Assembly (NCBI GenBank): GCA_017304475.1
Contig: JAFKKV010000014.1
Coordinates: forward strand, 248,001 to 312,000
Source of the DNA: Hyphomicrobiales bacterium
GTDB lineage: Bacteria; Pseudomonadota; Alphaproteobacteria; Rhizobiales; Phreatobacteraceae
DNA: 64,000 bases
Reading direction: 5' to 3'
In this document: one piece after another, positions 5,258-47,667 of the stretch
Layout: each line of letters begins with the position of its first letter
Position numbering within the stretch: the stretch's first letter is position 1
The notes under the pieces: generated by a model
What the model was told of the DNA's origin: nothing
Database searches by the model: none
The model's input: the letters and a program-made list of their open reading frames with translations, nothing else
Position numbers and translations under genes: made by a program

Positions 5258-6303
5258 GAGGTCGGCCTCCCGTCGGTGCGCACGATGCGGACGCGCCTTT
5301 GGGAATTCCCATTGCCGAACCGCAGCTCGGCGGCGGCGAACAGGCGATCGACGATGATGTGGTGGCCGCGGACGCGGTAGTTGACCAGTTCGGAGGTGTT
5401 GCCTTCCGGGCCGACGACAAACAGCGGCGGCATTTCCCCTTGGGCGATGCCACGCGGGAACTCGATGAACACCTGCCGCCCATCGTCGTAGGCGCGCAGC
5501 GGCCGCCACGGCGCTCGGTCGCCCTCGATCGCATAGCGGAAGTTGATGTTGGCTAGATCGACGCCAGAGGCGACCGGCTGCGCGGCTTCCGCCTGGGCAT
5601 TTTGCCGACGCAGCGCGATGAGCTGATCCTGCGGATACTGCCAGGAGACCGAGGCCATATACGTCCGCTCGGTCGAGCGCAGTTCCATATGGTAGGTCCG
5701 CAGATTGGTGTTGATGATCAGGTTGGTCATCAGGTCAGCGCGCGATGGCTTGACCAGAATGTGGACCTGACGCGAGGCACCGGAGCCGCTTTCGGTATCA
5801 CCAATGATCCAGCGCACGGTATCGCCGGCGGCGACGGGGCCTGCGCCGACGAGCTGCTCGCCGGGCTGGAGCGCGATGTCGGTGATCTGCCCGACGGCGG
5901 TATAGACCTGATAGAGCGCTCCGCCGGTGTATGGATAGACCTGCATAGCGTTGATGAAGCCGTCGCGGACGGGCTGGACGCGGGCGGCGGCGTTGGCCTG
6001 GTTCACCCGTGCCGCCGGGTCGGTGGCCTCCGGGGCGCGACGCGACGGTTCGACCGGTTTCATCTGGCCCGGCAGCGGCAGCGGACGGGAAAGTTCGACC
6101 ACGGTGATGGGCGCGGGCGGGTCGACCGCGATCGTCGCCGGCGCGGCGTCGTCATAGGCGATCTCGGGCGGCTTTTGCGTGGTGGCGCAGCCAGCGAGCA
6201 CCGTCGCCGCGAGCAGGGCCAGCGGCAAGGCGGATGTGCGGAACGACGGATTAGCGATTGCGGGTAAGGCCGGGTTTTCGGCTTTACGGAAAGACGGCTT
6301 CAT
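5254..6303 (-). CDS. trbG: TrbG conjugative transfer lipoprotein (VirB9-like)
   Basis: A 349-residue VirB9-type outer-membrane-ring component. The N-terminus has a signal sequence ending in a lipobox (LLAATVLAGC at about residues 30-39). The mature part contains the VirB9 core (PYTGGALYQVYTAVGQITDI, LVKPSRADLMTNLIINTNLR, ERTYMASVSWQYPQD) and a C-terminal domain ending in VRTDGRPTS. It overlaps trbF upstream by 4 bases (ATGA) and trbI downstream by 4 bases (GTGA). Confidence 0.94.
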   Translation of the reverse strand: MKPSFRKAENPALPAIANPSFRTSALPLALLAATVLAGCATTQKPPEIAYDDAAPATIAVDPPAPITVVELSRPLPLPGQMKPVEPSRRAPEATDPAARVNQANAAARVQPVRDGFINAMQVYPYTGGALYQVYTAVGQITDIALQPGEQLVGAGPVAAGDTVRWIIGDTESGSGASRQVHILVKPSRADLMTNLIINTNLRTYHMELRSTERTYMASVSWQYPQDQLIALRRQNAQAEAAQPVASGVDLANINFRYAIEGDRAPWRPLRAYDDGRQVFIEFPRGIAQGEMPPLFVVGPEGNTSELVNYRVRGHHIIVDRLFAAAELRFGNGNSQRRVRIVRTDGRPTS

Positions 6304-6983
6304 TGCCCAAGCTCCCGTGACCAGTTGATGGCGTTGACGAAGATGCCGAGCGGGTTCTTCCGCAGACGCTCGGCGTCGCGTGGCGGCTGCACGACGATTG
6401 TCAGGATAGCGGTCCAGCGCGAGGTCTCGGCGAGCGAACCGTCCTGATAGCGGCGCTCGGTCCAGGCGACGCGGAAGCTGTCGGGCGAGGCGCGGATGAC
6501 ACTGGAGACATCGACCGCGATCTGCTGCGTGCCGACCTTGGTGAAGGGGTCGTTCGAGCGCGCATAGTCGTTGAGCGCCATCGCGCCGCGATCGGTGGTG
6601 AAGTCGTAGGCGCGCAGCCAGTTCTGCCGCACGATGATGGCGTCGGCGGGGATCGAGCGGACCTGCTCGATGAACCGCGCCAGATGCCAGGCGATCTGCG
6701 GATCGGTCGGGCGATAGTCGGCGACCGCCGGCGCGACGGCCTGCGACTGGCCGAGCCGATCAACCTGCACCACCCACGGCACGATGGTGCCGCGCGCCGA
6801 CTGCCAGACCAGGGCGGAGGCAAACCCCGCCGACAGGATCAGCGAGCCGAAGGCCATCAAGCGCCAGTTCTTGGCCTGGACGCGGGCCGCGCCGATGCGG
6901 TCGTCCCAGACCTGGGCGGCGCGTTGGTAGGGCGTCTCGGGCTCGGGCGCCTTGCCGTAATGGGTGGAGGGTCGTTTGAACAT
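6300..6983 (-). CDS. trbF: TrbF conjugative transfer protein (VirB8-like)
   Basis: A 227-residue VirB8-type assembly factor of the mating-pair channel: short cytoplasmic N-terminus, one membrane segment (MAFGSLILSAGFASALVW), then the periplasmic NTF2-like domain (VDRLGQSQAVAPAVADYRPT, QNWLRAYDFTTDRGAMALN, FRVAWTERRYQDGSLAETSR). The ATG shares one base with the trbL stop (TGATG), and the stop overlaps trbG by 4 bases. Confidence 0.94.
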   Translation of the reverse strand: MFKRPSTHYGKAPEPETPYQRAAQVWDDRIGAARVQAKNWRLMAFGSLILSAGFASALVWQSARGTIVPWVVQVDRLGQSQAVAPAVADYRPTDPQIAWHLARFIEQVRSIPADAIIVRQNWLRAYDFTTDRGAMALNDYARSNDPFTKVGTQQIAVDVSSVIRASPDSFRVAWTERRYQDGSLAETSRWTAILTIVVQPPRDAERLRKNPLGIFVNAINWSRELGQ

Positions 6984-8341
6984 CAGCGGTCACTTTCGGC
7001 GAGGTTGACTGAAGAGCCGCCGCCGTGTGCATCGCCGGCGCGGACGGCGTGGGCGGCGGCCTGGACGCCGTGCGTCAGGGACTGGGAGCGCTTCATGCGC
7101 CGGGCCCAGGCGGGGGCGCCGCCGGACCCTCCGGATGAAGACGAGGCTGTATCGGCGGCGTCGCTACCGATCGTGCCCTTGGTCGAGGAGCCTCCGGTCG
7201 CCTCGAAGGCGGCCATGCCGCCCTCGTTGAAACTCGAACGCATGCTCTCGGCGGCGCGAGAGGTGGCCCGGCGAAGCGGCGAAGTCGCGGCGCTGGCGCC
7301 GGCACGGGCGACGCCGCCGAGTCCCGACGCGACACCTGACGCGCCGGACTGACCGGCGGCGCCGAGGCTGTAGGCGGTGGAGGCTCCACCCGCCATGGCC
7401 GCACCGCCCCGCGCGGCGGCGGCCGCACCGCCGGCCAGGGCGCCAGCGCCGCCAGCGGCTGCGCCGAGTGCCGCGCCGCCGGCCGCGACCATGCCGCCTG
7501 CAGCGAGGGCGGTGCCAACCGCTGCACCGGCGCCGAGCTGGGGGCCGCCAGAGACGAGGCCGTTGGCGATGCCGGGGCCGAAGATGCCGAGGCCGAGCAA
7601 TGACAGGGCGGCGAGGACGATCGCCATCGCCTGGTCGATCGTCGGGGTCTGGCCTCCGAAGCCGGCGGTAAACTGCGAGAACAAGGTCGAGCCGATGCCG
7701 ATGATGACCGCGAGCACGAGCACCTTGATGCCCGAGGAGATGACGTTGCCGAGCACCCGCTCGGCCATGAAGGCGCTCTTGCCGAACAGGCCGAAGGGAA
7801 TCAGCACGAAGCCGGCGAGCGTCGTCAGCTTGAACTCGATCAGTGTGATGAAGAGCTGCACGGCGAGGATGAAGAAGGCGAGCAGGATCAGCGCCCAGGC
7901 GAACAGTAGGCAGGCGATCTGGATGAAGTTCTCGAAGAACGAGACCCACCCCATCAGGCTCGAGATGGATTCGAGCAGCGGTCGGCCGGCGTCGAGTCCG
8001 GTCTGCGCGACGCGCCCCGGCCGCATGAGATCCGCGACGGTGAAGCCCGTGCCCGACGCCTTCAGGCCAAGCCCGGCAAAACTCTCGAAGACGATGCGGG
8101 CGAGGTTATTCCAGTTGCCGATGATGTAGGCGAAGACCCCGACGAACAGGGTCTTCTTGATCAGCCGCGCCAGGATGTCGTCGTCGGCGCCCCAGCTCCA
8201 GAACAAGGCGGCGAGCGTCACGTCGATGACGATCAAGGTCGTGGCGATGAAGGCGACCTCACCGCTCAGCAGGCCGAAGCCGCTATCGATATAGCGGGTG
8301 AAGACCTCGAGGAACTGGTCGATGACGCCGGTGCCGCCCAT
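6983..8341 (-). CDS. trbL: TrbL conjugative transfer protein (VirB6-like polytopic membrane protein)
   Basis: A 452-residue protein with about six or seven membrane segments in the first ~280 residues (for example VAFIATTLIVIDVTLAALFW, LLFAWALILLAFFILAVQLF, ALSLLGLGIFGPGIANGLV). This is followed by a long Ala/Gly-rich low-complexity region and a Ser-rich soluble tail. That layout is typical of TrbL, the inner-membrane channel component. The Ala/Gly tract is encoded by very GC-rich repetitive DNA (about 7,300-7,560). Confidence 0.93.
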   Translation of the reverse strand: MGGTGVIDQFLEVFTRYIDSGFGLLSGEVAFIATTLIVIDVTLAALFWSWGADDDILARLIKKTLFVGVFAYIIGNWNNLARIVFESFAGLGLKASGTGFTVADLMRPGRVAQTGLDAGRPLLESISSLMGWVSFFENFIQIACLLFAWALILLAFFILAVQLFITLIEFKLTTLAGFVLIPFGLFGKSAFMAERVLGNVISSGIKVLVLAVIIGIGSTLFSQFTAGFGGQTPTIDQAMAIVLAALSLLGLGIFGPGIANGLVSGGPQLGAGAAVGTALAAGGMVAAGGAALGAAAGGAGALAGGAAAAARGGAAMAGGASTAYSLGAAGQSGASGVASGLGGVARAGASAATSPLRRATSRAAESMRSSFNEGGMAAFEATGGSSTKGTIGSDAADTASSSSGGSGGAPAWARRMKRSQSLTHGVQAAAHAVRAGDAHGGGSSVNLAESDR

Positions 8342-34631: not shown

Positions 34632-37160
34632 ATGGTGGACTTCAAGAAGTTGCGCGAGGCGAAGGCTAAGCCAAAGCCGGTAAACCCGCGTGACATTTTC
34701 AATGCGTTGCCAAAGCCACCCGGTATCAACGACCTGTACGCAAGTCAGGCCGAAGTGCTCGATGCATGGTTCGCGCGTCGCACCGATCGAGACATCGTGG
34801 TCAAGCTGCATACTGGCGGCGGCAAGACCCTTGTCGCGCTACTTATGGCACAATCGGTGATGAACGAGACGGGCGAGCCCGTCCTCTATCTCGCTCCGAC
34901 CAATCAGCTGGTCGAGCAGGTCCTGGCCAAGAGCGAGGAGTATGGGATCAGCGCCGTGCCATACACAAAGGGGCAGCCCCTTCCGGCGGAGTTTCACGAC
35001 GGCAAGACGGTCCTCGTCGGTTCGTACGAAACCTTGTTCAACGGGCGTAGCAAGTTCGGGGTACGCGGATCGGCACAAGCGGTGGTCAAGGTCGGTGCCA
35101 TTATCCTCGACGATGCGCATGTGGCGCTGTCGTCGGTGCGCGAGGCGTTCACCCTCAACGTCTCAATCAAGGACCACAAAGACGTCTATACAGAACTGGC
35201 CGATCGGTTCCGACCCGCGTTCAAGGAAGTCGGTCGCGCGGGTGCGTTCGCCGACATCATCAACGGCAAGGAGTTCGGTGTCATCGAGGTGCCAAGCTGG
35301 GCGTGGCACCGCAAAAGCGACGAGATTCAGCAGTATCTGGCGGGTGAGGTCGAGGAGATCGACCCGTTTGTCTGGCCCTTTCTGCGGGACAATCTTGGGG
35401 TGTGCCACTGCCTGTTCAGTAAGGCCGGGATCAGCATCACTCCGATTTTTCCACCAGTCGATTTGCTCCCGACATTCGAGGACTGCGGGCGACGCATCTA
35501 TATGTCGGCCACTATTGCGGACGACAGCGAGATCGTCCGCACGTTCGGCGCTGCACAAGACGCAGTATCCAGGCCCGTTACGTCCGCATCGCTGGCCGGC
35601 GTCGGGGAACGTATGATCCTCGTTCCTGGGCTGATGAAGCTTGGCACGCCGATACTGCCGATGGTGAAGGACATCGCGACAAAGATTGCCGAGAGCAAGC
35701 GGGGCGTCGCCATCCTGACGCCATCGGGTGCCGCCGCAAAGGAATGGACCGACGTTGCCGAGTATGCGGAGAAGACAAAAGTCGTGTCCGAGAAAGTCGC
35801 CGCGATGCAAGCGGGCGATGCCTACGGGCCCTTGGTGCTGGCCAACCGCTATGACGGCATTGATCTCGCGGGCAACGCCTGCCGATTCCTCGTCATGGAT
35901 AATCTTCCCCAGGGCACCACCAACTACGACGTCTTCCGCATGAACGTGGTGGCCGACGCGGCGGTGAATTCACTTCTCGCCCAGCGGATCGAGCAAGGCA
36001 TCGGGCGGGGCACTCGGGGCGGTGCCGACTACTGCGTGATCATGCTGATCGGAACCAAGCTGGTCGGCTGGATCGGACGCAAGAAGAACCTCGATTTCCT
36101 CACGGCGAGCACTCGGGTCCAGCTCAAGATGGGCCAGGAGGTAAGTGAGGCGGTGACGACGCCGAAGGAAGTCCGAGAAACCATCGGCAAATGCCTTAAG
36201 CGCGATGCCGACTGGGTAGGCTACCATGCATCAGAGTTGGCGGATGCCGCTCATTCGGCCCCGGTGGACGAACTGGCGCTCAAGGTGGCCTCCGTCGAGC
36301 GCAGGGCGTTAAAGCTCCAGCGGCTGGGCCAGTATGAAAAGGCGCTCGCGGCGCTTGAGAAGCTTATGGATGAGGAGGCGCTGGCCAACGACGCCCAGCG
36401 CCGGGCCTGGCTGGCCGCCGCCGCAGCCCGGATCGCCTATCAGATGGAAGACGAGCTCAAGGGGCAGAAGCTGCAGACTACCGCCTTCTCGATCAACAAT
36501 AATCACAGTCCGCCGCGCAAACGTCCCCTTTATGTGGCGAGACCGGCACCGGGCAAACAATCGTCCGCGATCATCAGGCGGTTGCGCGAGTACGACCAGC
36601 GTGGCGCGATCCTGGCAGATTTTGATGAGGCTATGAGCGACCTCGTGCCCGAAGCGTCTGCGTCAAGGTACGAGGAGGCTCTGGCCAATCTTGGTGCCTA
36701 TCTAGGGTTTGATGCTGAGCGACCCGAGAAGGTCCATGGAGTGGGCCCCGACGTCCTGTGGCGGACCGAGGCGGCGTTCGATTTCGTAATCGAGGCGAAG
36801 AGCGAGAAGGACGAGAGCAACCCGCTTTACAAGAAGGATCACGCCCAGCTTCTCGAGGCCGAGCATTGGTTCAAGCAGGCCTACGCAGGGCGAGAGGCGG
36901 TCCGGGTGTCCGCCTTGCCTGAGGCGGTGGCCGACGAGAAGGCCACTCCTGTCGGCAGCTTCGCGTTTCGGCTGGCTGAGGTCACCAAAGTCGTGAGCGC
37001 GTTGCGCGGTGTGCTTGTCGAACTGGTGGGCGCTGGTGGAGGTTCAGATGCTCTGCGTGAGCAGTGTGAGGCCGCGCTGGTCAAAGCCAAGCTGAAGCCG
37101 CCGATGATCCGGGATGGCTACATGAAACCCTTCGGTGCGTTCAAACCCAAGACGAATTAA
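34632..37160 (+). CDS. SF2 helicase with C-terminal PD-(D/E)XK-like motif, probable defence protein
   Basis: An 842-residue protein. Helicase motifs are motif I VKLHTGGGKTLVALLMAQS (residues ~57-75), motif Ia YLAPTNQLVEQV, motif II IILDDAHV, motif III RIYMSATIADDSE and motif VI QRIEQGIGRGTRGGADYCVI, an arrangement like the Rad3/DinG (Helicase_C_2) group. A middle helical region follows (LKLQRLGQYEKALAALEKL). The C-terminus has GPDVLWRTEAAFDFVIEAKS, a PD-(D/E)XK-type nuclease signature (PD near 701, EAK near 718). It is the only plus-strand gene between the transporter and the chromosome, converges on the restriction-like operon, and is AT-richer than the backbone. Defence is inferred from domains and location. 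Confidence 0.82.
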   Translation: MVDFKKLREAKAKPKPVNPRDIFNALPKPPGINDLYASQAEVLDAWFARRTDRDIVVKLHTGGGKTLVALLMAQSVMNETGEPVLYLAPTNQLVEQVLAKSEEYGISAVPYTKGQPLPAEFHDGKTVLVGSYETLFNGRSKFGVRGSAQAVVKVGAIILDDAHVALSSVREAFTLNVSIKDHKDVYTELADRFRPAFKEVGRAGAFADIINGKEFGVIEVPSWAWHRKSDEIQQYLAGEVEEIDPFVWPFLRDNLGVCHCLFSKAGISITPIFPPVDLLPTFEDCGRRIYMSATIADDSEIVRTFGAAQDAVSRPVTSASLAGVGERMILVPGLMKLGTPILPMVKDIATKIAESKRGVAILTPSGAAAKEWTDVAEYAEKTKVVSEKVAAMQAGDAYGPLVLANRYDGIDLAGNACRFLVMDNLPQGTTNYDVFRMNVVADAAVNSLLAQRIEQGIGRGTRGGADYCVIMLIGTKLVGWIGRKKNLDFLTASTRVQLKMGQEVSEAVTTPKEVRETIGKCLKRDADWVGYHASELADAAHSAPVDELALKVASVERRALKLQRLGQYEKALAALEKLMDEEALANDAQRRAWLAAAAARIAYQMEDELKGQKLQTTAFSINNNHSPPRKRPLYVARPAPGKQSSAIIRRLREYDQRGAILADFDEAMSDLVPEASASRYEEALANLGAYLGFDAERPEKVHGVGPDVLWRTEAAFDFVIEAKSEKDESNPLYKKDHAQLLEAEHWFKQAYAGREAVRVSALPEAVADEKATPVGSFAFRLAEVTKVVSALRGVLVELVGAGGGSDALREQCEAALVKAKLKPPMIRDGYMKPFGAFKPKTN

Positions 37161-37273
37161 CGTTTCGGGGCGGCGCACGATTGCATTTCGCCTTTGGCGA
37201 TATGGCTATGTCTCTGATTCGGCCTCGGCCCGAGCGCATTGAAGCCCAGCTTACCGATAGACGCGATTTCCGC

Positions 37274-37939
37274 CTAGACAGAGCTGACCGGCGCGGCCGG
37301 TAGCATGTCGACGAAGATATGCTTCAGGCGGATCGTGTGACTGCTGCTCTGCGAAAGCGCGCCTTGAAGCACGGCTAAAGAAAGTGCGTGCGTGGTCTCC
37401 GGCGTCAAGCCGGCGGCTTCCCCATACGTCTTGCGGATACGGGCATCGATGGCATCGACCACATCCGCTGCCGGCAAGGCCAATACATAGCCAAGCATAA
37501 ACCCCCAATCATGGCCGGTAGCGTACTGGCTGGTGACGAACCGATCGACGCCCTTCGCCACGTAACTCCCGTTCAGGGCTGAGTCGCCGGCTCGCACGCG
37601 TTTGCACTCGACCGCCACATAGGCGTCCTCGTCGCCGAACTGGTGCAAGAACTGCAGGGTGATGTCGATCCGCCCGAGAAGGGCAGGGTCGCTGGTCGCC
37701 ATGTCTTCGAGCTCGACTTCCCCACGAACTTGCAGATTCGTGAGACCGAGGGTCTTCTTGACCCGCCGCATGGCCTTACGAACGACGATCGTGGTCGGAA
37801 CCTCAAGCATACCGGGCGTGACGTCGGACCGCGCCGCGTCACAGCCTCGACACACCAGATCGACGACAGTTGCGATCTGATCGTCGGACAGGGCGAAGGC
37901 GGGGAGGCCGAAGGGGACGTCAGGCGTGAGCAACGACAT
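37274..37939 (-). CDS. Small PD-(D/E)XK-like protein coupled to the DNA methylase
   Basis: A 221-residue protein. GRIDITLQFLHQFGDED followed by AYVAVECKRVRAGD fits a PD-(D/E)XK nuclease core (Asp, then ECK). The rest is alpha/beta with GVDRFVTSQYATGHDWGFML and a tail with HTIRLKHIFVDMLPA. Its start overlaps the methylase gene by 20 bases, so the two are co-translated. I infer a restriction partner for the methylase, since I see no nuclease motif in the methylase itself. I do not recognise the family by name. GGAGG lies 4 bases before the ATG. Confidence 0.7.
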   Translation of the reverse strand: MSLLTPDVPFGLPAFALSDDQIATVVDLVCRGCDAARSDVTPGMLEVPTTIVVRKAMRRVKKTLGLTNLQVRGEVELEDMATSDPALLGRIDITLQFLHQFGDEDAYVAVECKRVRAGDSALNGSYVAKGVDRFVTSQYATGHDWGFMLGYVLALPAADVVDAIDARIRKTYGEAAGLTPETTHALSLAVLQGALSQSSSHTIRLKHIFVDMLPAAPVSSV

Positions 37940-40900
37940 CCCGCCTCCGTAGCCAGTGATCGGCGAGGATGATGTCGGCGTCGTTCAGCCCGGCTGTGCG
38001 TGTCCAGTAGCGGATTTCGGTCGGCTTTAAGATGAACAGATCCTCGTTGCCGTACAGCCGCATCTGCCTGCGTTCGTTGAGATATGGCGGGATGTCCGCC
38101 TCGAGCTGACCGCGGAGGAGCGCTGAGAGAGCCTGAAGCTCCGCCGGGTCGCCCTCGCGAACCACCGGTTCTTCCCCGGGGCCACCAGGGGCCATGACAA
38201 ATCTGACCGCAGTGATTCCTGGAATGCCGGCCGCGAGGTCGCCCTTGCTCAGCCGCACAGGATAAATAACGGCTTCGAGATGGCGCGCGCCACGCGCTCT
38301 CAGGTACGCGTCAACGGTTCGCGTTACCTGGCCGGCATAGCCACGTAGGCTCTGTGCATCCGGTGGCGCGACCAAGCCAATGCGTTCGCTTCGGTTCTCG
38401 AAGATCAGATAGCGCGCGCGAGAGACGCTTTCTCGAGCCAGAGTCTGCTCGTCTGGCTCAAGTGCGTAGAGCTCGAAAACGGCGTCGTCGAGCTGACTTA
38501 GGGAGGACGCATTGGCGGGCGCGTTAGCTGCCTGCTTCTCAGCCTTTATGACTGCGTCGATGGCGGTTGGATCACCCTCGCCAAGGAATGGGATCCGCAA
38601 CGACAACAGGTCGTGCGGTTCAACCGTCGGTCGTTCGAGACCCCACGTCGGTCCGCCGAGCGCAAACTGGAAGGCGGTGAGGCTGGAATTCAGAATCCCC
38701 GAAAGCAGATACGCAAGACGCGGGTCTGCGTCAGCGAACGAAACGCCAAAGTAGCCCTGCGTATAAAGCACGTCATCCCGGCTCACGGCTGCGCTGTACC
38801 GTCCCCGCTGCGCGCCGGCATCCGATCCCACCTTCGAGCACAAGAGCAGCGGTCCACGAAAGATCGACCGACTTCGAATCCGATGAAGCGTCTTGTGTGT
38901 GAATTCGTCGAGCTTGCTCGCGTCCAAGCGGAAAGGTGTGAAATTGTCAGGCGTGACGACCGCGAGATCGGCGTAGTCTTCGGGGCTCGCGGTCTGTTCG
39001 CGTCCTTGAACTTTGAAACCCTGTCCGCGATTTACCCGTCGTTCGATTCCAAGCTTTGTCAGCGCCTCGTCAAGCGTCGGAAATTCGCGTTCGAGCCGCT
39101 CGATGAGCCAGCCATCACGCACCGTTCCAAACGTCGCCGCCTTCAGAAAGGGCGGTGTCGCGAGCACTCTTTTCAAAGGAACGGAGCGGATTTCTCCAGG
39201 TCCGAGATGGAAAACGCCGGTGCGCCGAAAGTCCGGCGTCCAAGGGATCGAACCAACAAGGAGCCGGTCTGCTTCTGGCCCTAGCGCGCACCGGGCGAAA
39301 AAAAGGAGCGCGGGACCGACGGCGTCGGGAAACAGATCTTCGCGGCGGAGGTAAGAAAGATTAATGAGCGCGACAGGAGACAAACGCTCAAGGAGATGGG
39401 TCCGCGCCGCGACAGCGTGGATGTCTTTCGAGAAGAACGGAGTGGCTTTCATCACCATTCCGACGCGACCGGTTTCGCCAGCCAGATCCGCGCCTAGTGC
39501 CAAGAACGCTTGATCCGGGCTCCGTCGAGGGCGCAGCGTTGCCGCATCGGACTCACGCCGCTTTTGCGCGCCGCCGTCCTTAGTGACGAACGTCCAAGGA
39601 GGATTGCCTACGACGGCGTCGAAAGTCTGGCTGGTGATCTGGGCCGGAAGATCACCGCCCAGCGAGTCGGCCTCGAACAGCGTCGTGTCGATCAGGTGAT
39701 CGAACTTGAGATCGCCGATGTGTGTGACGGGCTCTTCATCCAGTTCAAGAGCCGCAAGGTAGAGACTGAACGCCGCGATGCCGAGGGCGGCGCGATTGAT
39801 GTCGATTCCGAAGAGCTGATTGTAGAGGATGTGGCGCACGAGCTGCCGACCTGCCGGTTTGCTCCCGGATGCGCGCCACACAAGGCGGCGGAAAGCCTCG
39901 ACTAGAAACGCGCCCGAACCACAGGCCGGATCAACGACCCGCGCATCTGCCGCCAACCCCTCAAAAACAGGGTCGAGCGTAAGGTGCACGAGCTCGACCG
40001 GCGTATAGTGGAGACCCTGAGAGCGTGCTTCATCGGCCGCGCTCGTACGGGCGAACTGCTGATAGATCGAGCTGACCAGATCAACTGGGATCGCGTTGAA
40101 GCGGAACCGAAACAGCCTCCCTTGACCGTGACGCTCGGGGATGAGGCTGCGACCTTCGACGAAATCGCGGATGAGCTCCAGGTGTTGTGGTGTTAGCTGC
40201 TCGCGTTCGGCGCCGGGATCGTCCATCGGAAACAAGTCCCCATTGAACGTCGTGCGCAGCCAGTCGAACAAGGCGAAAGCGTTGGCCGGCGTAGCGAACA
40301 TGGCGCTGAGATCGGCAGGCACGCTGGATGGCAGGAACGGCTGAGCAATCCCGCGATCCAAGAGATACCAAGTGAAGATGCAGCGCCCGATGAATCGCTG
40401 CGCGATGTCGCGAGCATGAGCCGAAGCGTGGTCGGTTTGAGGCTCGCCGAGCACGGTGAGGCGATCCTCCAGCGCGCTGATCTCGGCAAGCAGTTCGCGA
40501 TCGACGCGATGGCGACGGTTGATTTTGGAGCCGATGGCGCTCGACCAAAATGCGCCGGTCTCGGTGGCGATGCGGCCGCACTGTGCGTCGAGGGCACGCA
40601 GCCGATCCAGAGAATCGAGAACGAAGCTGTCGAGCGGTCGCGGCGCCTGATCTGGTTGCGCGTCGGTCTGCCCCGGAGACTCATAGCAATCGTAAAGCCG
40701 AACGTCCGTGGGCGTGACAATCCAAAGAAGCGGCGCGACGCCAACGTTCCAAGCTGCCTCTTGCCAATGGCGGAGGTCTGCTTCGCTGGGCTCCGCATCG
40801 CCGGCGTCCTTGAAGATGCTGGCTGGTGCGTTCTGCGCCGAGAAGACAGCGTCGGCGTTCAGCCCGACGCGGTCGTCGGAGAACACCGCGCGCATCCTGG

Positions 40901-41003
40901 CGGCGCGAGGATCGTCGGCCGACACGAGGCCGGGAGCCGGCCGACCGTTGGAGCCGATGTATCCGGTCGCTTCCAACGCCTGCTTGAAAGCTGCGCTCGT
41001 CAA
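37920..41003 (-). CDS. N6-adenine DNA methylase (Eco57I/type IIG-like)
   Basis: A 1027-residue protein. An N-terminal region (~300 residues, WNVGVAPLLWIVTPTDVRLY) precedes the methylase core: GLHYTPVELVHLTLDPVF, motif I VVDPACGSGAFLVEAFRRLV, the FGIDINRAALGIAAFSLYLA segment and motif IV FDAVVGNPPWTFV. The C-terminal ~450 residues contain a TRD-like part (SKVGSDAGAQRGRYSAAV, DPRLAYLLSGILNSSLTAFQ, LERPTVEPHDLLSLRIPFLG) typical of type IIG/IIL and BREX PglX-like enzymes. It overlaps the MerR-like gene by 4 bases (ATGA) and the small nuclease-like gene by 20, giving a three-gene operon. N6-adenine specificity is from NPPW. Confidence 0.88.
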   Translation of the reverse strand: MTSAAFKQALEATGYIGSNGRPAPGLVSADDPRAARMRAVFSDDRVGLNADAVFSAQNAPASIFKDAGDAEPSEADLRHWQEAAWNVGVAPLLWIVTPTDVRLYDCYESPGQTDAQPDQAPRPLDSFVLDSLDRLRALDAQCGRIATETGAFWSSAIGSKINRRHRVDRELLAEISALEDRLTVLGEPQTDHASAHARDIAQRFIGRCIFTWYLLDRGIAQPFLPSSVPADLSAMFATPANAFALFDWLRTTFNGDLFPMDDPGAEREQLTPQHLELIRDFVEGRSLIPERHGQGRLFRFRFNAIPVDLVSSIYQQFARTSAADEARSQGLHYTPVELVHLTLDPVFEGLAADARVVDPACGSGAFLVEAFRRLVWRASGSKPAGRQLVRHILYNQLFGIDINRAALGIAAFSLYLAALELDEEPVTHIGDLKFDHLIDTTLFEADSLGGDLPAQITSQTFDAVVGNPPWTFVTKDGGAQKRRESDAATLRPRRSPDQAFLALGADLAGETGRVGMVMKATPFFSKDIHAVAARTHLLERLSPVALINLSYLRREDLFPDAVGPALLFFARCALGPEADRLLVGSIPWTPDFRRTGVFHLGPGEIRSVPLKRVLATPPFLKAATFGTVRDGWLIERLEREFPTLDEALTKLGIERRVNRGQGFKVQGREQTASPEDYADLAVVTPDNFTPFRLDASKLDEFTHKTLHRIRSRSIFRGPLLLCSKVGSDAGAQRGRYSAAVSRDDVLYTQGYFGVSFADADPRLAYLLSGILNSSLTAFQFALGGPTWGLERPTVEPHDLLSLRIPFLGEGDPTAIDAVIKAEKQAANAPANASSLSQLDDAVFELYALEPDEQTLARESVSRARYLIFENRSERIGLVAPPDAQSLRGYAGQVTRTVDAYLRARGARHLEAVIYPVRLSKGDLAAGIPGITAVRFVMAPGGPGEEPVVREGDPAELQALSALLRGQLEADIPPYLNERRQMRLYGNEDLFILKPTEIRYWTRTAGLNDADIILADHWLRRRDVVAHA

Positions 41004-41545
41004 GCGGACCTCCGGCGAATGGTCGCAATGGGATCACCCTGTCGCTTGCGAGCAGCCGGAACGACCGGCGCATTAGCCGATTGCTCGATCGAGCGTGCGG
41101 GGAAGAGTTCCAACTGCCCGGACGACGGCCCCGGACGGGGGAGAGCGAAGCCGACCGACAAGGCCTCAAGATGCGTTTGCAGACGTATGATCACCGCATC
41201 ATTGTTCAGCTGGAGCGTCTCGGCTTCATCCACTAAAGTCCAATCATCCCCGCCCTGCAGAGCCAATGTCTTGCCCCATAGCGCGATGAAGGAAGTACGC
41301 CGGAGACCAGTCTTGAGGCTTGCGAACAACGTGCGGTGCGGCTGAAGCTCAAGATGGAAGCGGTCCCGAAGTGTGACGGCGACTCGAAGAAGAAGGACTG
41401 TCTGCCATGTGAATCCTGCGGGCGAACCCTTGCCCTTTGGCGGGACATCCGCAGGGATTAAGGCCCGGCGGCTCGTCCACTCTCGCAGCGTCGCCGTCGA
41501 GAGTCCCGTAAGCTGGGTCGCATCGGGCGTCGTAACGAACCGCAT
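41000..41545 (-). CDS. MerR-like HTH regulator of the methylase operon
   Basis: A 181-residue protein. The N-terminal HTH reads RFVTTPDATQLTGLSTATLR followed by EWTSRRALIPADVPPKGKG and FTWQTVLLLRVAVTLRDRF, a MerR/AlpA-like winged helix. The C-terminal ~100 residues are a helical region (LQLNNDAVIIRLQTHLEALS) with a basic tail. Three consecutive ATGs occur; AGGG lies ~6 bases before the third (41,545), which I use. Two strong palindromes are centred ~25 and ~57 bases upstream, so it probably represses its own operon, delaying or balancing restriction against methylation. Confidence 0.75.
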   Translation of the reverse strand: MRFVTTPDATQLTGLSTATLREWTSRRALIPADVPPKGKGSPAGFTWQTVLLLRVAVTLRDRFHLELQPHRTLFASLKTGLRRTSFIALWGKTLALQGGDDWTLVDEAETLQLNNDAVIIRLQTHLEALSVGFALPRPGPSSGQLELFPARSIEQSANAPVVPAARKRQGDPIATIRRRSA

Positions 41546-41559
41546 CATCATCCCTAGAA

Positions 41560-41612
41560 GATCGGGTCTTATACCCGATCTCGATCGGGGGGAACGGGTA
41601 TCATACCCGATC
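41560..41612 (-). promoter_or_regulatory. Paired operators of the methylase operon
   Basis: Two 21-bp palindromes lie at 41,560-41,580 (GATCGGGT and ACCCGATC arms around CTTAT) and 41,592-41,612 (core CGGGTAT-C-ATACCCG, ending in GATC). Their right halves ATACCCGATC are identical, and centres are 32 bp apart, about three helical turns. They sit directly upstream of the HTH gene and downstream of the integrase stop, as expected for an autoregulated promoter. Confidence 0.75.
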
Positions 41613-41654
41613 TCGGCGGTAAACGGTTGACGCGCATGTGTCAGGCGCAAGCAG

Positions 41655-43076
41655 CTACCCATGGCTCACCTCCTTTGCCTTATCGCGCTTGGTGCCAAGA
41701 GGGACGGTGCGGTTCTCGCCGGAGCGATGGCGGAACGGCCGATAGTTTCCGAGCTTGGTGCGGGACCCATATTGGCCGTCCTCGTAGCCGAGGGGCTTGC
41801 CGGTCGCAGTCAGCACCGGTTCAATAGCCTCGACGTCCGGCGCAACCGAAGGCACTTCCACAACCGTTGCCGTCATAGCGGCGGGAAGCAGGCTTGCCCC
41901 GTGACCACCAAGCAACGCTTGCCGCCGCTGGTTCACCGCTTCCGCCGCAGCTCGGACCGGGTCGTCCTCGGTGTGCACGTACTTCATGAACATGGTCACC
42001 GTCTTGTGGGCCGTGAGCGCCATGCCAACCTTCACGGGGATGCCGGAGTTGGCGATGTCGGTCGCCGAGCGATGCCGGATGCCATGCGTTCCGATATGCG
42101 GGAGCCCGGCGCGCTTAAGGATGCGCCGCCAGCCCTGGTAATACGTGTGCTTCGACATCGGAAGGTTGGGGTCGAAGACGGACGGGCAGACGAACGGCGA
42201 TTCCTCAAGGAGCGGCGCGGTCTCGAAGAGCCGCTGCGCCTCGGCGCTCATTGGTTTGGACATGCCACCGGTCTTGCTGTCCGGCCAGACGACGCGTCGA
42301 TTATCGTAATCGATCCACGACCATTCGAGCTGGAGGATCTCGGACATCCGCGCAGCGAATTCGAACTGGAGCCGGATCGCGAGGAGGATGAAGGGATGCT
42401 CAAGCCCCTCCGCCTCGGCGCGCGCTAGGTACGCGAATAGCTTCTTCATCTCGCTGTCGGTGATCAACCGGGTCTTTCCGCGTTCCGGGTACTTCGGGAC
42501 GTGGCGGCAGGGATTCGACCCGTCGGGGCGCATGCCCCAGACCTCGGCCATGTTGAACATCTTCCGCACGGCCGCGAGGACGCGGTTCGCGTTGGTCGGT
42601 TTCTTCGACATCTTCTTCATCAGGTTGGAGATGTCGGCGCGGGTGACGTCGGGCACCTTCAGTTGGCCGAGCACCGGAATGATGTAGCGCTTGCCGTAGC
42701 CGCGGTTCGAATGGACGGTGGACGGCTTGTTGCGGCTCTCCGAGTAGTCGGTGATGAAGCGGTCGAAGAGTTCCTTGACCGTGGGCGCCTGCCGGGCTGT
42801 CGCCCGCTCAGCGCTGGGATCGACGCCTCGCCGAACCTCGGCCAACCAGTCCTGGGCGATCCCGCGGGCCTGCTCGACGGTGATCTCACCGAAACGGCCG
42901 ATAGCGGGCTTTCGGCGCTGGCCGTTGTGGGCGACATAGGCGACCATGAAAATCTTGCGGCCGGTTGGCGTGACCTTGACAAGGAACCCGGGTATCGTCG
43001 TATCCCGGAGTTCGTAATCGCGCTCCTGCGGCGTTGCGGCGTCTACAGCGGTCTTGGTGAGTTTGATTTTGGGCAT
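41655..43076 (-). CDS. int: Tyrosine-type site-specific integrase of the ICE
   Basis: A 473-residue P4-like integrase. The N-terminal arm-binding domain (DYELRDTTIPGFLVKVTPTG) and the core-binding helices (VTRADISNLMKKMSKKPTNA) precede the catalytic domain: Arg I in FEFAARMSEILQLEW, HxxR in GTHGIRHRSATDIANSG, the His in GMALTAHKT and the Tyr nucleophile in MFMKYVHTED. A ~75-residue extra tail (SVAPDVEAIEPVLTATGKPL onward) goes beyond the usual end. The gene ends at the defence operon and begins ~200 bases from the tRNA fragment, the standard orientation for tRNA-targeting integrases. Confidence 0.94.
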   Translation of the reverse strand: MPKIKLTKTAVDAATPQERDYELRDTTIPGFLVKVTPTGRKIFMVAYVAHNGQRRKPAIGRFGEITVEQARGIAQDWLAEVRRGVDPSAERATARQAPTVKELFDRFITDYSESRNKPSTVHSNRGYGKRYIIPVLGQLKVPDVTRADISNLMKKMSKKPTNANRVLAAVRKMFNMAEVWGMRPDGSNPCRHVPKYPERGKTRLITDSEMKKLFAYLARAEAEGLEHPFILLAIRLQFEFAARMSEILQLEWSWIDYDNRRVVWPDSKTGGMSKPMSAEAQRLFETAPLLEESPFVCPSVFDPNLPMSKHTYYQGWRRILKRAGLPHIGTHGIRHRSATDIANSGIPVKVGMALTAHKTVTMFMKYVHTEDDPVRAAAEAVNQRRQALLGGHGASLLPAAMTATVVEVPSVAPDVEAIEPVLTATGKPLGYEDGQYGSRTKLGNYRPFRHRSGENRTVPLGTKRDKAKEVSHG

Positions 43077-43646: not shown

Positions 43647-46601
43647 CTAATTCGTGCGAGACGCCGGCCCCTGCGACAAGAGGCGTCGCTCCAATATCGC
43701 GGCAAGCGCCCTGACTCTCTCTGTCGGCGAAATCCGCTCGGCGGCCTCTACGCCCGCCAGCGTCGTGCGGATGCGCGCCTCGGCAACCGCGGCCACCCCT
43801 AATGCCTGGGCGCGGCTCGATTGGTCCACCTCCCCATGGGTGGCCGACAGCAGAGCAGTGACCAATTCGCCCAACCGGTCCCCCATGTCATATTTCAAAG
43901 CGAGGGCGAGGCCCGCGACCCCGACCAAGATGCAACGCCGGAACGTGGGCCGGCGCGGATTGTCGGACTCGCGCATGAACAGAAAGGCGGATGCCAAGTC
44001 TTCTCCGCTCTGCCTGAGCCGAGGCTCGGGCACCCCGGCCCCGCCGGCTTCCTTCCGTTGTATCGCAAGGTCTACCGTCTCACGCATGACCGTTGCCCGC
44101 AATGCGGCGCATGGGCTGGCTCCATCATTGGACGCCGCTTCGGCGCGATCGTCCTGGATCTGCTCCATCACCGATTCAATCCGGCCCCGCCGCCCCAGAT
44201 GAAGCAGGTCCAACGCCGCATGTTCGATGGCAGCGATATCGATTTGCGGGGCGTTGCCGAGATACTGCAGAATTGAACGGCTTGCATGTTGCGCCCATGT
44301 CTGCCGGAGGGTTTCGGCCAGCTGTGGATGACGACCCTCCACGGCTTTGGCCAAGGCAATGACGTCGTGACCGCGAGACGGCGGCACACTCAGCATCATC
44401 GGAAGCCATTGCATCGTCAGAGCAACCGCCGCGTCCAGCTTCCCCGAAGCGAGCAGCGCGTTGATGGACAGCAACGGGTCGCTGTCATGACCGAGATCGA
44501 AGTCAGATGACGCCTGATCGGCGAATTGAATGCCGAACGCGTCATACGCGATGCGCGGCTGCACCTCACTTGCCGGAAGGCTCGCGCGAAACGCGATGGC
44601 GCCCGCAAGCGCATGACGATAGATGAGCGGCGCCGGGATGCGCGCTGTCGCACAGGCGGCGGCAAATTCGCTCGCAAAGCGCCCATGGCCCGCATGGGTG
44701 ATTTGGCGGATCGTGGACTGGGCGCCGGGACATCGCCGATCGGGCGGCTTGGCGTAAATCGCGAGGAATTCGCGCGCCAGGGCGTCGTTCCCGTCGTGAA
44801 GGGCCCCCAGCATCAGGTCCGCCGCGACATAGGAAAGCCCGGCATCACGCGAAAGCGCCGCAAGAAGCTCCTGCTGCACGTCCGCGGCCGTCCCGTAGCC
44901 GCCCGCCCTGGCGCCGGCGACGCCTGCGGCGAGGATCTCGATCCTGAGCGGCCTCTGGTCGGGATGTTCTTCGTTCTCGAGCATGCGAACCGCATTGCGA
45001 ATATCCTCGAAACGCCCGCGTCGCGAGGCCTCCCGGGCAATGGCCGTCGCGGCGCCACGGCGCGCTTGCGGATCGACCAGGCTTATGGCCCGGGCGAGGC
45101 CTCGCTTCAGATCAGCGTCGCCGAGCGCGAGCAGCATCGTCCTGGCGAAGGCCGCGCCGTCCTCGATCAGCACGAGGTCGGGCGTCGACAGCATGGACGC
45201 GGCCTGCCGCTCTCGCAGGCCCGCCGCCGTATGCGGATGAACTCCGCTTGCAAAGACGAAGGAGCAAAGCGCGGCCCATAACGCCACCAAGGGCGCGAGC
45301 GTCAGGGCCCGCGCGAAGCGGAGTGCAAACCCACCACCGCTCCGCATCCTGACGGCAGGCGCGTCGACGCGGCCATGCTCGTACCAATCGCGAACCGCGG
45401 CGGAGCCGCGAGGCAGGCCTCCCGCCACCCGCGCCGCAATCAGCGCGCGCACTCCGGTACTGTCGAAATAGCTAGTGTGAATCAGCTCCTGCCAGCTCGC
45501 TGTTCCCGCGAAGAGCCCGGCGACCTCGCCAAGTTCCTCTTGCCGGCCGATCGTGTTCAATTGCCGGCGCCCCTCTCGTAGCGCGAGCGCGGCGGAGCGG
45601 TCCGCCGCTTCTCGGATCTGCTCCTGCGTCTCTCGCGGCAGCGCAGGCCACCACCGCACGACCGCGGAAGGGCCGACCGTCACCGCTGCGAGATCCTCGG
45701 AAATGTCCCGGCCTTGCGCCCGTCCGGTCACCACGCGCCATGCCTGTTGATCGCCGGCAGGCGCGAACAGCCAGTCGAATGCGGTCAAAGCGCCCGCCAG
45801 CCTGGCAAGAAGGCCGGAATTGGGCCTTCCGAAGCGCGGCACGAGCACTGGTGGCCTCACCAGGCTCGCGGCCAGCAACGCCCGCGCTTCGTCGTCATCG
45901 TGCCAGATGCCGAGCCACCGGTCCGTGAAGCGCTCGGCGGAGAGCCGCTTCCGCTCATCGATCGTCCGCCTCGCGACGACGACGAAATGGGCCAGGATGG
46001 CGCCCAGGGTCATCAGAGCCGCCAGCCCGAACATGCCCGTCAGCGCGTACAGAAGTGACAGCGCGCCCTGGCCCGTTTCCCGCCACAGCATCGCTGGTTC
46101 CGAGGCCAGGGCCGATACGCTGGCGACGACAAAGGGCGAAGTAAGGATGAAGCAGAGCAGGAGCAAAAGCCGCGTCAACGGCCATCGCATCGGGGCGAAG
46201 GTGAGGAAAGGCGTTCCGACGGTCGTCCAGCTGCCCAGCTTGGCGAGCGGCTTATTCGCCGCGGCGGCAAGGCCGAGCGCCTGCCAGACGACGTTTCCGC
46301 CATGGCTGTGCGCAACGAGGTGATAGGCCGAGCAATCGCCTCGCTGCTCGAGCTCACCAAGGTAGCGCAGCAAATCGTCGGCACCTCGCCGCCGGGCCAC
46401 TTCCGAATTGGCGCCTCCCTCCCCCCAAGCGAAACCGTCGTCTATCTCAAATCCGGGCCCGATCTCGGCGCTCAGCGCCGCAGCGAAGGCGCTGTGCCCT
46501 TCCCACCATTTCGGCCTCTCCCTGCCGCGATGGCCGGCGAAAGTGCCATGAATAAGGATAACCCGTTCCCGACGGCGATCGTCGTTGTTCTGGTAAGGCA
46601 T
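43647..46601 (-). CDS. Large alpha/beta-hydrolase-like membrane protein, function unknown
   Basis: About 984 residues from the ATG at 46,601. The N-terminal ~160 residues look like a lipase/esterase-type hydrolase: VILIHGTFAGHRGRERPKWW (HG box) and YHLVAHSHGGNVVWQALGLA with the nucleophile Ser. Two membrane segments follow (LLLLLCFILTSPFVVASVSA, LTGMFGLAALMTLGAILAHF), then a third near LTLAPLVALWAALCSFVFAS, then ~500 residues of helical-repeat-like sequence. The His/Asp of the triad is not certain. An upstream ATG at 46,787 would add a hydrophobic segment; the start is uncertain. It meets the divergent kinase gene there. Confidence 0.6.
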   Translation of the reverse strand: MPYQNNDDRRRERVILIHGTFAGHRGRERPKWWEGHSAFAAALSAEIGPGFEIDDGFAWGEGGANSEVARRRGADDLLRYLGELEQRGDCSAYHLVAHSHGGNVVWQALGLAAAANKPLAKLGSWTTVGTPFLTFAPMRWPLTRLLLLLCFILTSPFVVASVSALASEPAMLWRETGQGALSLLYALTGMFGLAALMTLGAILAHFVVVARRTIDERKRLSAERFTDRWLGIWHDDDEARALLAASLVRPPVLVPRFGRPNSGLLARLAGALTAFDWLFAPAGDQQAWRVVTGRAQGRDISEDLAAVTVGPSAVVRWWPALPRETQEQIREAADRSAALALREGRRQLNTIGRQEELGEVAGLFAGTASWQELIHTSYFDSTGVRALIAARVAGGLPRGSAAVRDWYEHGRVDAPAVRMRSGGGFALRFARALTLAPLVALWAALCSFVFASGVHPHTAAGLRERQAASMLSTPDLVLIEDGAAFARTMLLALGDADLKRGLARAISLVDPQARRGAATAIAREASRRGRFEDIRNAVRMLENEEHPDQRPLRIEILAAGVAGARAGGYGTAADVQQELLAALSRDAGLSYVAADLMLGALHDGNDALAREFLAIYAKPPDRRCPGAQSTIRQITHAGHGRFASEFAAACATARIPAPLIYRHALAGAIAFRASLPASEVQPRIAYDAFGIQFADQASSDFDLGHDSDPLLSINALLASGKLDAAVALTMQWLPMMLSVPPSRGHDVIALAKAVEGRHPQLAETLRQTWAQHASRSILQYLGNAPQIDIAAIEHAALDLLHLGRRGRIESVMEQIQDDRAEAASNDGASPCAALRATVMRETVDLAIQRKEAGGAGVPEPRLRQSGEDLASAFLFMRESDNPRRPTFRRCILVGVAGLALALKYDMGDRLGELVTALLSATHGEVDQSSRAQALGVAAVAEARIRTTLAGVEAAERISPTERVRALAAILERRLLSQGPASRTN

Positions 46602-46785
46602 GCCGCACCGCGTCGCATCGCACCGCGCGAGAGGGTAGAAGACGAAACGGCGATCGTCGATGCAGCTGCCTTGCCCGCCGGCCTGCGGCAAAAGGCCTTC
46701 ATGCCTCGCGGCCGGCCCCCGCGCGACCAAGTAATAGGCCGGAGCAAAAGCCGTTTCGGCGATCCCCCCTATCACGAGACAGAGC

Positions 46786-47667
46786 ATGCAGCCGAAGACC
46801 ATCGCCGACGGTAGGGATACGTCCGCCGACACCCCCGCCTTCCCCGACCATTGGGGCATCGCCACCGCCGAACTCTTCACCGAGACCGTCTCCAGCCGGA
46901 TATGGCAAGTCCGGGTCGGCGATGGTCGCCTGGCGGTGGTCAAGGACCTCAAGCCGATCAAGGACGTGCAGGACGGCTTGAACGGAGCGGACTATCTCGC
47001 CTGGCGCGACGGCATCGGCGCGATCCGGCTGCTCGGGCGCGACGGACATCGCCTGCTGCTCGAACATGCCGGCGGCCGGCCGCTGTCGCAGGAGATCGCG
47101 GCGCAAGGCGACAGCGTCGCCACCGGCATTGCCGCCGAGGTGATGGCGCGGCTCCTGGCGCCGCCGGTGGACGGCTGGCCCGCCCATCTGCCGCCGCTCC
47201 GGCAGCGTTTCGCCGGCCTGTTCGCCAAAGCCAGGGCCGATGACCATGCCGAGGTGAAAAGCCTCTATGGCGAGGCGGCCCGGCTCGCCGACGGCTTGCT
47301 CGCCGAGCCGCACGACGTGCGCCCGCTGCATGGCGACCTGCATCACGACAACATCATCTCGGGGCCGCGCGGCTGGCTGGTGCTCGATCCGATCGGGATC
47401 GTCGGCGATCCCGGCTTCGACGCCGCCAACATGTTCTACAACCCGCTCGACCGCAACGATCTCTGCCGCGATCCGGCCCGCATCGCCGCCATGGCCGAGA
47501 GCTTCTCCCGCGTGCTCGGCCAGAGCCCGCGCCGCCTGCTCGACCATGCCGTGGCCTATGGCTGTCTGTCGGCGTCATGGCATGCCGAGGACGACAACAG
47601 GCCGGACGAGGAGCGTGAACTGGCGGTTGCCCTTGCGATCCGCGCGGTGCGCGACCGCGGCTTCTGA
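46786..47667 (+). CDS. APH(6)-like aminoglycoside/hydroxyurea antibiotic kinase family protein
   Basis: A 293-residue small-molecule kinase related to streptomycin 6-phosphotransferases. The kinase lobe has WQVRVGDGRLAVVKDLKPIK with the ATP-site Lys, LLGRDGHRLLLEHAGGRPLS in the hinge region, the catalytic loop LHGDLHHDNIISGPRGW and the metal-binding VLDPIGIVGDPGFDAANMFY. Such genes are common in environmental alphaproteobacteria and need not confer clinical resistance. No strong ribosome-binding site is visible. The next gene converges on it after 11 bases. Confidence 0.85.
   Translation: MQPKTIADGRDTSADTPAFPDHWGIATAELFTETVSSRIWQVRVGDGRLAVVKDLKPIKDVQDGLNGADYLAWRDGIGAIRLLGRDGHRLLLEHAGGRPLSQEIAAQGDSVATGIAAEVMARLLAPPVDGWPAHLPPLRQRFAGLFAKARADDHAEVKSLYGEAARLADGLLAEPHDVRPLHGDLHHDNIISGPRGWLVLDPIGIVGDPGFDAANMFYNPLDRNDLCRDPARIAAMAESFSRVLGQSPRRLLDHAVAYGCLSASWHAEDDNRPDEERELAVALAIRAVRDRGF

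Follow-up and report, generated by a model that had tools for sequence, protein, structure and literature searches.

A Hna gene beside a putative split Type IIG-like restriction-modification operon in a mobile element of a Hyphomicrobiales bacterium

Described systems and the layout of the locus

Type IIG restriction enzymes are defined by an endonuclease domain within the same polypeptide (PMC4389544, PMC4752239), and BpuSI, DrdV and MmeI (Type IIG/IIL) carry their nuclease in the chain that also holds the methylase-recognition-domain fold. The separate-nuclease, split Type IIG-like examples described in PMC4752239 use PLD, GIY-YIG or HNH nucleases together with translocases; in AchA6III and OspHL35III (Blow et al. 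2016, PMC4752239), a methylase with a recognition domain and no nuclease motif goes with a separate endonuclease, either a PLD nuclease-translocase fusion or a GIY-YIG nuclease plus a translocase. A split Type IIG complex has also been proposed for HVO_A0006 of Haloferax volcanii, an N-terminal Type IIG fragment encoded far from its possible partner (PMC4389544). RptR, encoded by the first gene of a Type I restriction-modification (RM) operon, acts through repeated palindromes as a repressor of its own promoter (PMC12255303). Finally, Hna is described in the literature as a single effector protein causing abortive infection, and in the S. meliloti protein a change of K729 to alanine abolishes the exonuclease.

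Here, we describe a locus within a 64,000-nucleotide stretch of a Hyphomicrobiales contig (the window), in which a first-pass annotation had listed open reading frames, domains, gene overlaps, operators and an integrase, all of which are present:

34632-37160, plus strand: Hna helicase-nuclease gene, 842 aa ORF
37274-37939, minus strand: gene N, 221 aa ORF, putative PD-(D/E)XK nuclease subunit
37920-41003, minus strand: gene M, 1027 aa ORF with a TTG start, predicted N6-adenine DNA methylase with its own recognition domain
41000-41662, minus strand: regulator ORF, 220 aa as the longest ORF, first gene of the operon
41000-41551, minus strand: MerR-like regulator at its corrected extent, with the start moved to an ATG cluster
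41655-43076, minus strand: tyrosine integrase of the element (Phage_integrase 70.1 bits, Arm-DNA-bind_3 62.6 bits), context outside the system

The ORF coordinates bear out the overlaps reported earlier, of 4 bases (TTGA) between regulator and methylase and of 20 bases between methylase and nuclease, while Hna and N lie tail to tail on opposite strands. Between about 34 and 44 kb of the window G+C is lower, about 0.62 instead of about 0.68, as for acquired cargo. The segment at 43.0-43.9 kb shares no exact repeat of at least 15 bases with the remainder of the window. Our best reading is that the mobile element bears two separate anti-virus devices, Hna and a split restriction system.

Hna and its relation to the M-N operon

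The proposal of a plus-strand SF2 helicase with a C-terminal PD..EAK motif holds: the protein has DEAD (50.6 bits) and ResIII (46 bits) domains with N-terminal SF2 motifs, and the C-terminal PD-(D/E)XK residues D707, E721 and K723 are visible in the Hna alignment, with K723 (in EAK) aligning with K729 of S. meliloti Hna. Residues 1-763 of the 842 match the S. meliloti Hna chain 10uj_A in phmmer (377.9 bits, E=1e-111), and the PADLOC model PDC-S28 covers residues 1-834 at 881 bits. By homology, the window helicase is Hna, the known single-protein abortive-infection effector and an SF2 (DinG/XPD-like) helicase; the two proteins share their domains and differ in nothing of substance, residues past ~763 lying outside the sequence match. 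Since the window protein matches both, PDC-S28 and Hna probably represent one family. Like its homolog, the window protein would be a 3'-5' single-strand DNA exonuclease restrained by ATP and released by phage SSB.

Two alternatives had been put forward at first, a new defense system with four parts or a restriction system of three genes that has an independent helicase-nuclease as its neighbor, and our data favor the second. A four-part system, in which Hna would serve as the translocase or helicase of M-N as in the printed split Type IIG-like systems, could draw on the adjacency of the two cassettes (113 bp, tail to tail), on the lower-G+C block common to both and on the translocases that accompany the published separate nucleases. 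We nevertheless regard it as extremely unlikely, as Hna is described as a single effector, lies on the opposite strand and has no operator in front of it in a palindrome pattern search. Furthermore, the expected co-occurrence of the helicase with the operon is not seen, with Hna beside M in 0 of 103 M loci (the window not counted), and the host genome has a second Hna copy with no M-N there, so that gene context points to an Hna that works without a partner gene. The two families are likewise found together in the host alone, both in a phylum sample (299 genomes, 5 with N and 5 with Hna) and in a class sample (385 genomes, 10 with N and 6 with Hna), although these numbers are small. The suggested search against defense models assigned two proteins, the helicase and the methylase, and left the nuclease without a named family. 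The description of the module as undescribed thus fails for the helicase, which is Hna, and for the methylase, which PADLOC places in Type IIG, and stands for the nuclease.

The methylase M and the separate nuclease N

M combines an N6 methylase and a recognition domain in one chain, as Type IIG enzymes do, but the endonuclease lies outside the M polypeptide and is encoded by gene N. M matches N6_Mtase (71.5 bits), Eco57I and MmeI_Mtase, as well as PADLOC REase_MTase_IIG (138 bits), and can be divided as follows:

39912-39932, minus strand: motif I, DPACGSG, residues 358-364, predicted SAM binding
39594-39605, minus strand: motif IV, NPPW, residues 467-470, predicted N6-adenine methylation
38514-39116, minus strand: putative target-recognition domain, residues ~630-830, the segment exchanged among relatives
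40509-41003, minus strand: residues 1-165, occupying the position of the nuclease domain in Type IIG enzymes, no conserved active site

A loose motif-I pattern occurs in 94/94 M proteins, and motif IV reads NPP(W/F/Y/L) in 79 of them and NAPW in 13 others, with neither form in L017 and L059. Identity troughs at residues ~630-830 when close relatives are compared (identity comparisons exclude L002, where roughly the first 290 residues of M are missing). The predicted structure (pLDDT 84.0) matches BpuSI, CamA, DrdV, MmeI and BrxX, and the methylase-recognition-domain fold is common to M and BpuSI, DrdV and MmeI.

Taken at its word, the database label would make M a single-chain Type IIG enzyme and N an accessory. 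REase_MTase_IIG models do score well across the family (best model 106-833 bits in ten M proteins, with PDLC03603 and PDLC03623 as the best models), Foldseek ranks the Type IIG enzyme BpuSI first, and two M loci, L095 and L101, have no N. However, the motif D-x8-30-(D/E)xK is found within residues 1-165 in 49 of 94 M proteins versus 47.6 in shuffles, no lysine in residues 1-295 is conserved at 50% or more, and active-site residues are present throughout the N family, making a single-chain M highly improbable. In structure alignments, BrxX matches M only from residue 166 and DrdV from residue 37.

N carries the PD-(D/E)XK residues E46, D92, E111 and K113, and also H207, and most of its predicted structure resembles BamHI, OkrAI and BstYI. 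None of PADLOC, Pfam, NCBIfam and PHROGs assigns it to a named family: among 69 N members, Pfam gave PDDEXK_9 in 4 and one stray match, PADLOC gave one weak stray match and NCBIfam gave four stray ones, each to a single member, and the N profile matched no PDB sequence at E 1. At 221 aa N is a nuclease only, unlike the helicase-bearing Res subunit of a Type III RM system.

Across the 103 M loci (window excluded), N directly follows M in 96 of the 98 that are testable. Gene calling gave N in 93, a profile search recovered it in L078, and in L051 and L081 it starts but runs off the contig, which makes 96; L038, L055, L060, L092 and L099 stand outside the count because their contigs end 0-113 nt after M. 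These loci include 13 of 33 plasmid records and, from 53 viral loci, L095-L105, with L106-L147 omitted (methylases below 140 bits or none, no N match); L080 was dropped because gene calling yielded no M there. Searches with M drew no match from phage records at 1e-20 or from 60 host relatives at 1e-30. A reverse search from N alone placed M next to N and ahead of it in 13 of 13 loci, the window's own among them. Other than M and N, every gene family is limited to 8 or fewer of 105 loci (window included), and helicase-like families are near M-N in 5 and 4 of them, leaving no conserved translocase (blastp clustering at 1e-6, flanks often short). When 96 of 139 candidate neighbors were scanned against PADLOC at 1e-15, GajB and Type III methylases each appeared in 3 (25 of 212 families listed; raw counts for the neighbors alone).

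Could M and N instead form an orthodox Type II pair, with N recognizing and cutting the site unaided, M methylating it and no contact needed? The likeness of the N model to BamHI, OkrAI and BstYI would fit this, as would the finding that N and the M recognition segment diverge, on average, at the same pace. Orthodox type II nucleases vary widely in sequence; here, a single N family accompanies a single M family across phyla and in archaea (among the best 80 of at least 513 relatives). Moreover, N keeps 67-70% identity across unrelated recognition segments. In the quartet L026, L048, L089 and L090, the N proteins of L026 and L048 are 67% identical and those of L089 and L090 70%, with the remaining pairs at 43-45%, whereas in the M segment at alignment columns 651-900 it is L048 and L089 that pair up (45-80% per 50-column block versus 10-46% in the other five pairs). 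At the level of sequence, the recognition domain has been exchanged in this quartet and N has not. We therefore consider the orthodox arrangement unlikely.

There is also a slim chance that the operon does not restrict by cutting, and is instead an epigenetic regulator or else a BREX-like or signaling device, with M marking self and N switched on by some other route; N has an intact nuclease active site, and, in agreement with the first-pass annotation, there is no pglZ or brxC match among the 7 + 5 window proteins scanned. For BREX, M is the only one of these proteins to match, as a PglX methylase (25 of 69 families listed for M). For MADS, 7 window proteins gave nothing beyond weak matches to mad1 (21 bits) and mad2 (45 bits), and we reject both BREX and MADS as the identity of the operon.

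Our best reading is that M-N is a split Type IIG-like RM system without a dedicated translocase, little noticed but apparently widespread. Like AchA6III and OspHL35III, it pairs a methylase devoid of a nuclease motif with a separate endonuclease gene. It would differ from BpuSI, DrdV and MmeI in having its nuclease in a separate chain, from AchA6III and OspHL35III in the PD-(D/E)XK type of that nuclease and the lack of a conserved translocase, and from HVO_A0006 in that N is a conserved downstream gene. The M-N pair is not described in the literature consulted, though one of the 76 Type IIG-like systems of PMC4752239, whose supplementary tables lay outside the search, could represent it.

Regulation, proposed working and implications

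The regulator matches MerR_1 at E=0.004-0.006, below the Pfam cut-off, and relatives of it precede M in L015 (71%), L013 (57%), L105 (51%), L008 (46%) and, by eye, L163; gene calling was crude, at least one row of the upstream-gene scan, L008, being a wrong-frame ORF over an annotated MerR gene. Two palindromes lie in front of it:

41613-41591, minus strand: putative operator 1, AGATCGGGTATGATACCCGTTCC
41581-41559, minus strand: putative operator 2, AGATCGGGTATAAGACCCGATCT

Their centers are 32 bp apart, and, in agreement with the two operators proposed earlier, no other site in the window fits the palindrome pattern when up to 3 mismatches are allowed (4 strand matches versus 0.30 expected; 0 of 100 shuffles reach 4). 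Both are conserved in L015, L105 and L013 and degenerate in L163. The most likely start of the regulator is the ATG cluster at 41551-41545 rather than 41662, because the operators sit between the two and the relatives begin at the cluster. As with RptR, the operon's first gene has repeated palindromes in front of it; repression has been shown for RptR, whose RM system is Type I and whose binding site differs (PMC12255303).

Taken together, gene content, M-N pairing, an active site in N and none in M, conserved operators and the lack of Hna association, all read from sequence, make it likely that the locus holds two independent cassettes, Hna and a self-regulated split Type IIG-like RM system in which M recognizes and protects and N cuts, with no translocase. 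The recognition domain of M (~residues 630-830) would recognize one DNA sequence, at a motif where M would methylate adenine, and N would dock on M and cut unmodified foreign DNA, so that a changed recognition domain would alter both activities. The MerR-like protein would bind the two operators before its own gene and probably keeps the operon low or delays it after transfer.

For the window, the value of this analysis is mainly that two adjoining systems, seemingly one, are now told apart. Beyond it, we lean toward viewing M-N as a widespread, unnamed RM subtype: a Type IIG enzyme taken apart, with the nuclease site of M lost, the specificity of N derived entirely from M and no ATPase. If so, current annotation miscounts M-N as single-chain Type IIG, with two PADLOC Type IIG models applying that label to a set that needs a second, unlabeled gene, and M alone would methylate without restriction and be misread as an orphan methylase. 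Among RM designs with a single specificity, M-N would then be the simplest to let one recognition-domain exchange retarget both activities across two proteins, and a translocase-free two-protein system with exchangeable recognition domains would supply retargetable nuclease-methylase pairs.

Layout of the locus and identity of the helicase

The first-pass annotation had proposed a probable undescribed defence module in which a helicase-nuclease converges on a minus-strand regulator, methylase, and nuclease operon. As a description of the layout this was borne out, with the open reading frames, the gene overlaps of the operon, and its two operators all recovered, and with the helicase-nuclease gene and the operon lying tail to tail, 113 bp apart:

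34632-37160, plus strand, helicase-nuclease (Hna)
37274-37939, minus strand, N, small protein (separate PD-(D/E)XK nuclease)
37920-41003, minus strand, M, methylase (predicted N6-adenine methylase)

The MerR-like regulator gene most likely starts at 41551-41545, which places the operators ahead of it. G+C content of this cargo block is lower than that of its left flank, and a tyrosine integrase stands at its end; the ICE backbone genes were assigned by no more than the location of their open reading frames and weak hits to ParB_N and DUF932. Just beyond the integrase, a 1104-aa open reading frame (43647-46961, minus strand) contains a segment that looks hydrolase-like by eye.

The helicase is Hna, a known abortive-infection protein. 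The PADLOC model PDC-S28 matches it with 881 bits over residues 1-834, and PDB chain 10uj_A matches over residues 1-763 (E=1e-111), with further matching entries 9yhn and 9ykj; according to PMC13381803, 10UJ and 9YKJ are the Hna monomer and dimer. K723 in the PD-(D/E)XK motif of the window protein aligns to K729 of Sinorhizobium (S.) meliloti Hna, whose replacement by alanine is described there as abolishing exonuclease activity. The same source terms Hna a single-effector system, and its abstract describes activation by phage SSB and auto-inhibition at physiological ATP (PMC13381803). By homology, the window copy would be expected to function likewise.

Pairing of M with N and the neighbouring regulator

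Searches with an M profile gave 80 genomic loci from bacteria and archaea (the best 80 of at least 513 relatives) and 53 in viral contigs, and an earlier protein search supplied 13 plasmid loci among 33 records. The 103 loci counted here comprise plasmid loci L002-L014, genome loci L015-L094 without L080, and viral-contig loci L095-L105. N was called directly after M in 93 of the 103 and recognized by profile in L078, while the contigs of L051 and L081 end within an N gene that starts after M, giving 96 loci in total. Pairing could not be judged in L038, L055, L060, L092, and L099, where the DNA stops 0-113 nt past M. N was absent after M from the 588 nt left in L095 and the 3951 nt left in L101, both viral-contig loci whose M proteins are possibly solitary methylases. 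The gap between M and N has a median of -4 nt, with overlapping genes in 74 of the 93 called pairs. Because all 103 loci came from M searches, the converse search was run with N, and M adjoins N in 13/13 loci found through N alone, including that of the window. M and N form one unit.

Relatives of M with 76% identity occur on two Agrobacterium tumefaciens plasmids, L002 (NZ_CP116694.1, 9001-11205) and the near-identical H2, in which M is matched only from residue 290 on and N over residues 3-217; in L002, other annotated proteins are encoded ahead of M. By eye from translations, L161 (relative G248) has M-N between relaxase-/TraG-like and TrbB/TrbE-like genes, a cargo site unlike the integrase end seen in the window, and L162 (G209) has a relaxase-like open reading frame upstream.

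A short same-strand gene lies close ahead of M in 43 of the 99 loci that could be inspected there. Together with the window regulator (n=44), these genes match Peptidase_S24 (7), LexA_DNA_bind (5), HTH_17 (5), MerR_1 (4), and HTH_11 (3), while some matches are not to DNA-binding regulators (D12 methylase model, 2; PLDc_2, 1). Since several unrelated DNA-binding families are represented, we take the gene before M to encode a replaceable regulator and not a subunit of the enzyme. The operator pair, spaced 32 bp in the window, recurs with a spacing of 30 bp before a like regulator in L015 and L105; L013 has a single perfect operator, L163 a degenerate one, and L008 one weak match (14 of 20 positions). 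None was found directly before the operon in L004, L006, or L014, whose regulators share only 17-26% identity with that of the window, and L004 has one 14-of-20 match farther off. A precedent for the putative self-regulation of the M-N operon is RptR, a Type I restriction-modification operon repressor whose binding sites are repeated palindromes ahead of the rptR gene itself (PMC12255303).

No constant third enzyme accompanies M-N. Integrase is the commonest neighbour family besides M and N (8/105 loci, window counted), followed by helicase-like (5/105) and UvrD-like (4/105) genes, names that were judged by eye, with GajB matches backing the UvrD-like one. Genes resembling those of Gabija, OLD-type ATPase-like and UvrD-like, lie near M-N in L016, L027, L077, and L096; GajB models match 3/96 scanned neighbours, probably those in L016, L027, and L096.

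Several of the close M relatives differ from one another in a single segment, at about residues 630-830, and a trough in identity is seen there in 6 of 9 selected close pairs and absent in 3. Within a quartet of presumed Bacteroidota (metagenome bins L026, L048, and L089, and L090 from Zunongwangia atlantica), the M recognition segments of L048 and L089 group together (45-80% identity per block vs 10-46% for other pairs), whereas N groups L026 with L048 (67%) and L089 with L090 (70%; other pairs 43-45%). The recognition segment thus moved without N in this quartet, which argues that N may take its target from M. Counter to this, mean identity was 51.9% for N and 51.0% for the segment among the 97 pairs whose M cores are at least 60% identical; N exceeded the segment by at least 20 points in four of these and the segment exceeded N by such a margin in one, L048-L089 of this quartet.

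No association seen between Hna and the M-N operon

Genomes were surveyed at cut-offs of 1e-60 for Hna, at which 0/14 control genomes match, and 1e-8 for N. N was found in 5 and Hna in 5 of 299 genomes sampled from the phylum, and in 10 and 6, respectively, of 385 sampled from the class; the samples overlap in some genomes, and in each the host alone has both. On these small numbers, Fisher p for co-occurrence in the class sample is 0.15 when the host is counted and 1 when it is left out. Besides the window, an Hna gene was found in the available DNA around M in 0/103 loci (median flanks 7.5 and 6.4 kb; both sides at least 5 kb in 39). A second full-length host Hna, 74.7% identical to that of the window, lies on another contig (L160, G000:C32:7000-20500, locus positions 5161-7689), with neither M nor N in the 13.5 kb examined.

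When the palindromic operator was sought across the whole 8.38 Mb with at most one mismatch, the only hits were the two copies ahead of the operon and a single one-mismatch copy on contig C13; the reversed pattern, used as a control, matched once. Relaxing the criterion to 14 of 20 positions within the window brought in a further site at 23087, and Hna still had none in front of it. In the sampled genomes and loci we see no association between Hna and the M-N operon.

Relation of M-N to described systems

Two PADLOC Type IIG models match the M family, with best-model scores of 106-386 bits in 9/10 proteins scanned and 833 in L103, so the PADLOC label for M would be one-chain Type IIG. The definition printed in PMC4389544 and PMC4752239 places nuclease and methylase in one polypeptide, and by it M is not Type IIG. 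Type IIG-like systems whose endonuclease forms a peptide of its own do appear in PMC4752239: AchA6III has a PLD nuclease fused to a translocase, OspHL35III a GIY-YIG nuclease plus a translocase, and MexAMORF1192P, which is not related to MmeI, an HNH nuclease plus two translocases. As described there, all three differ from M-N, in which the nuclease is PD-(D/E)XK and no translocase is constant. The split Type IIG complex proposed for HVO_A0006 (PMC4389544) also differs in arrangement. No description of the M-N pair itself was found in the open-access abstracts and text passages searched, and given the separate-nuclease systems in print, we take M-N to be a variant of them. Judged from sequence, the locus would hold two adjoining but separate systems, the known Hna and M-N, a widespread, apparently unnamed split Type IIG-like restriction-modification variant.
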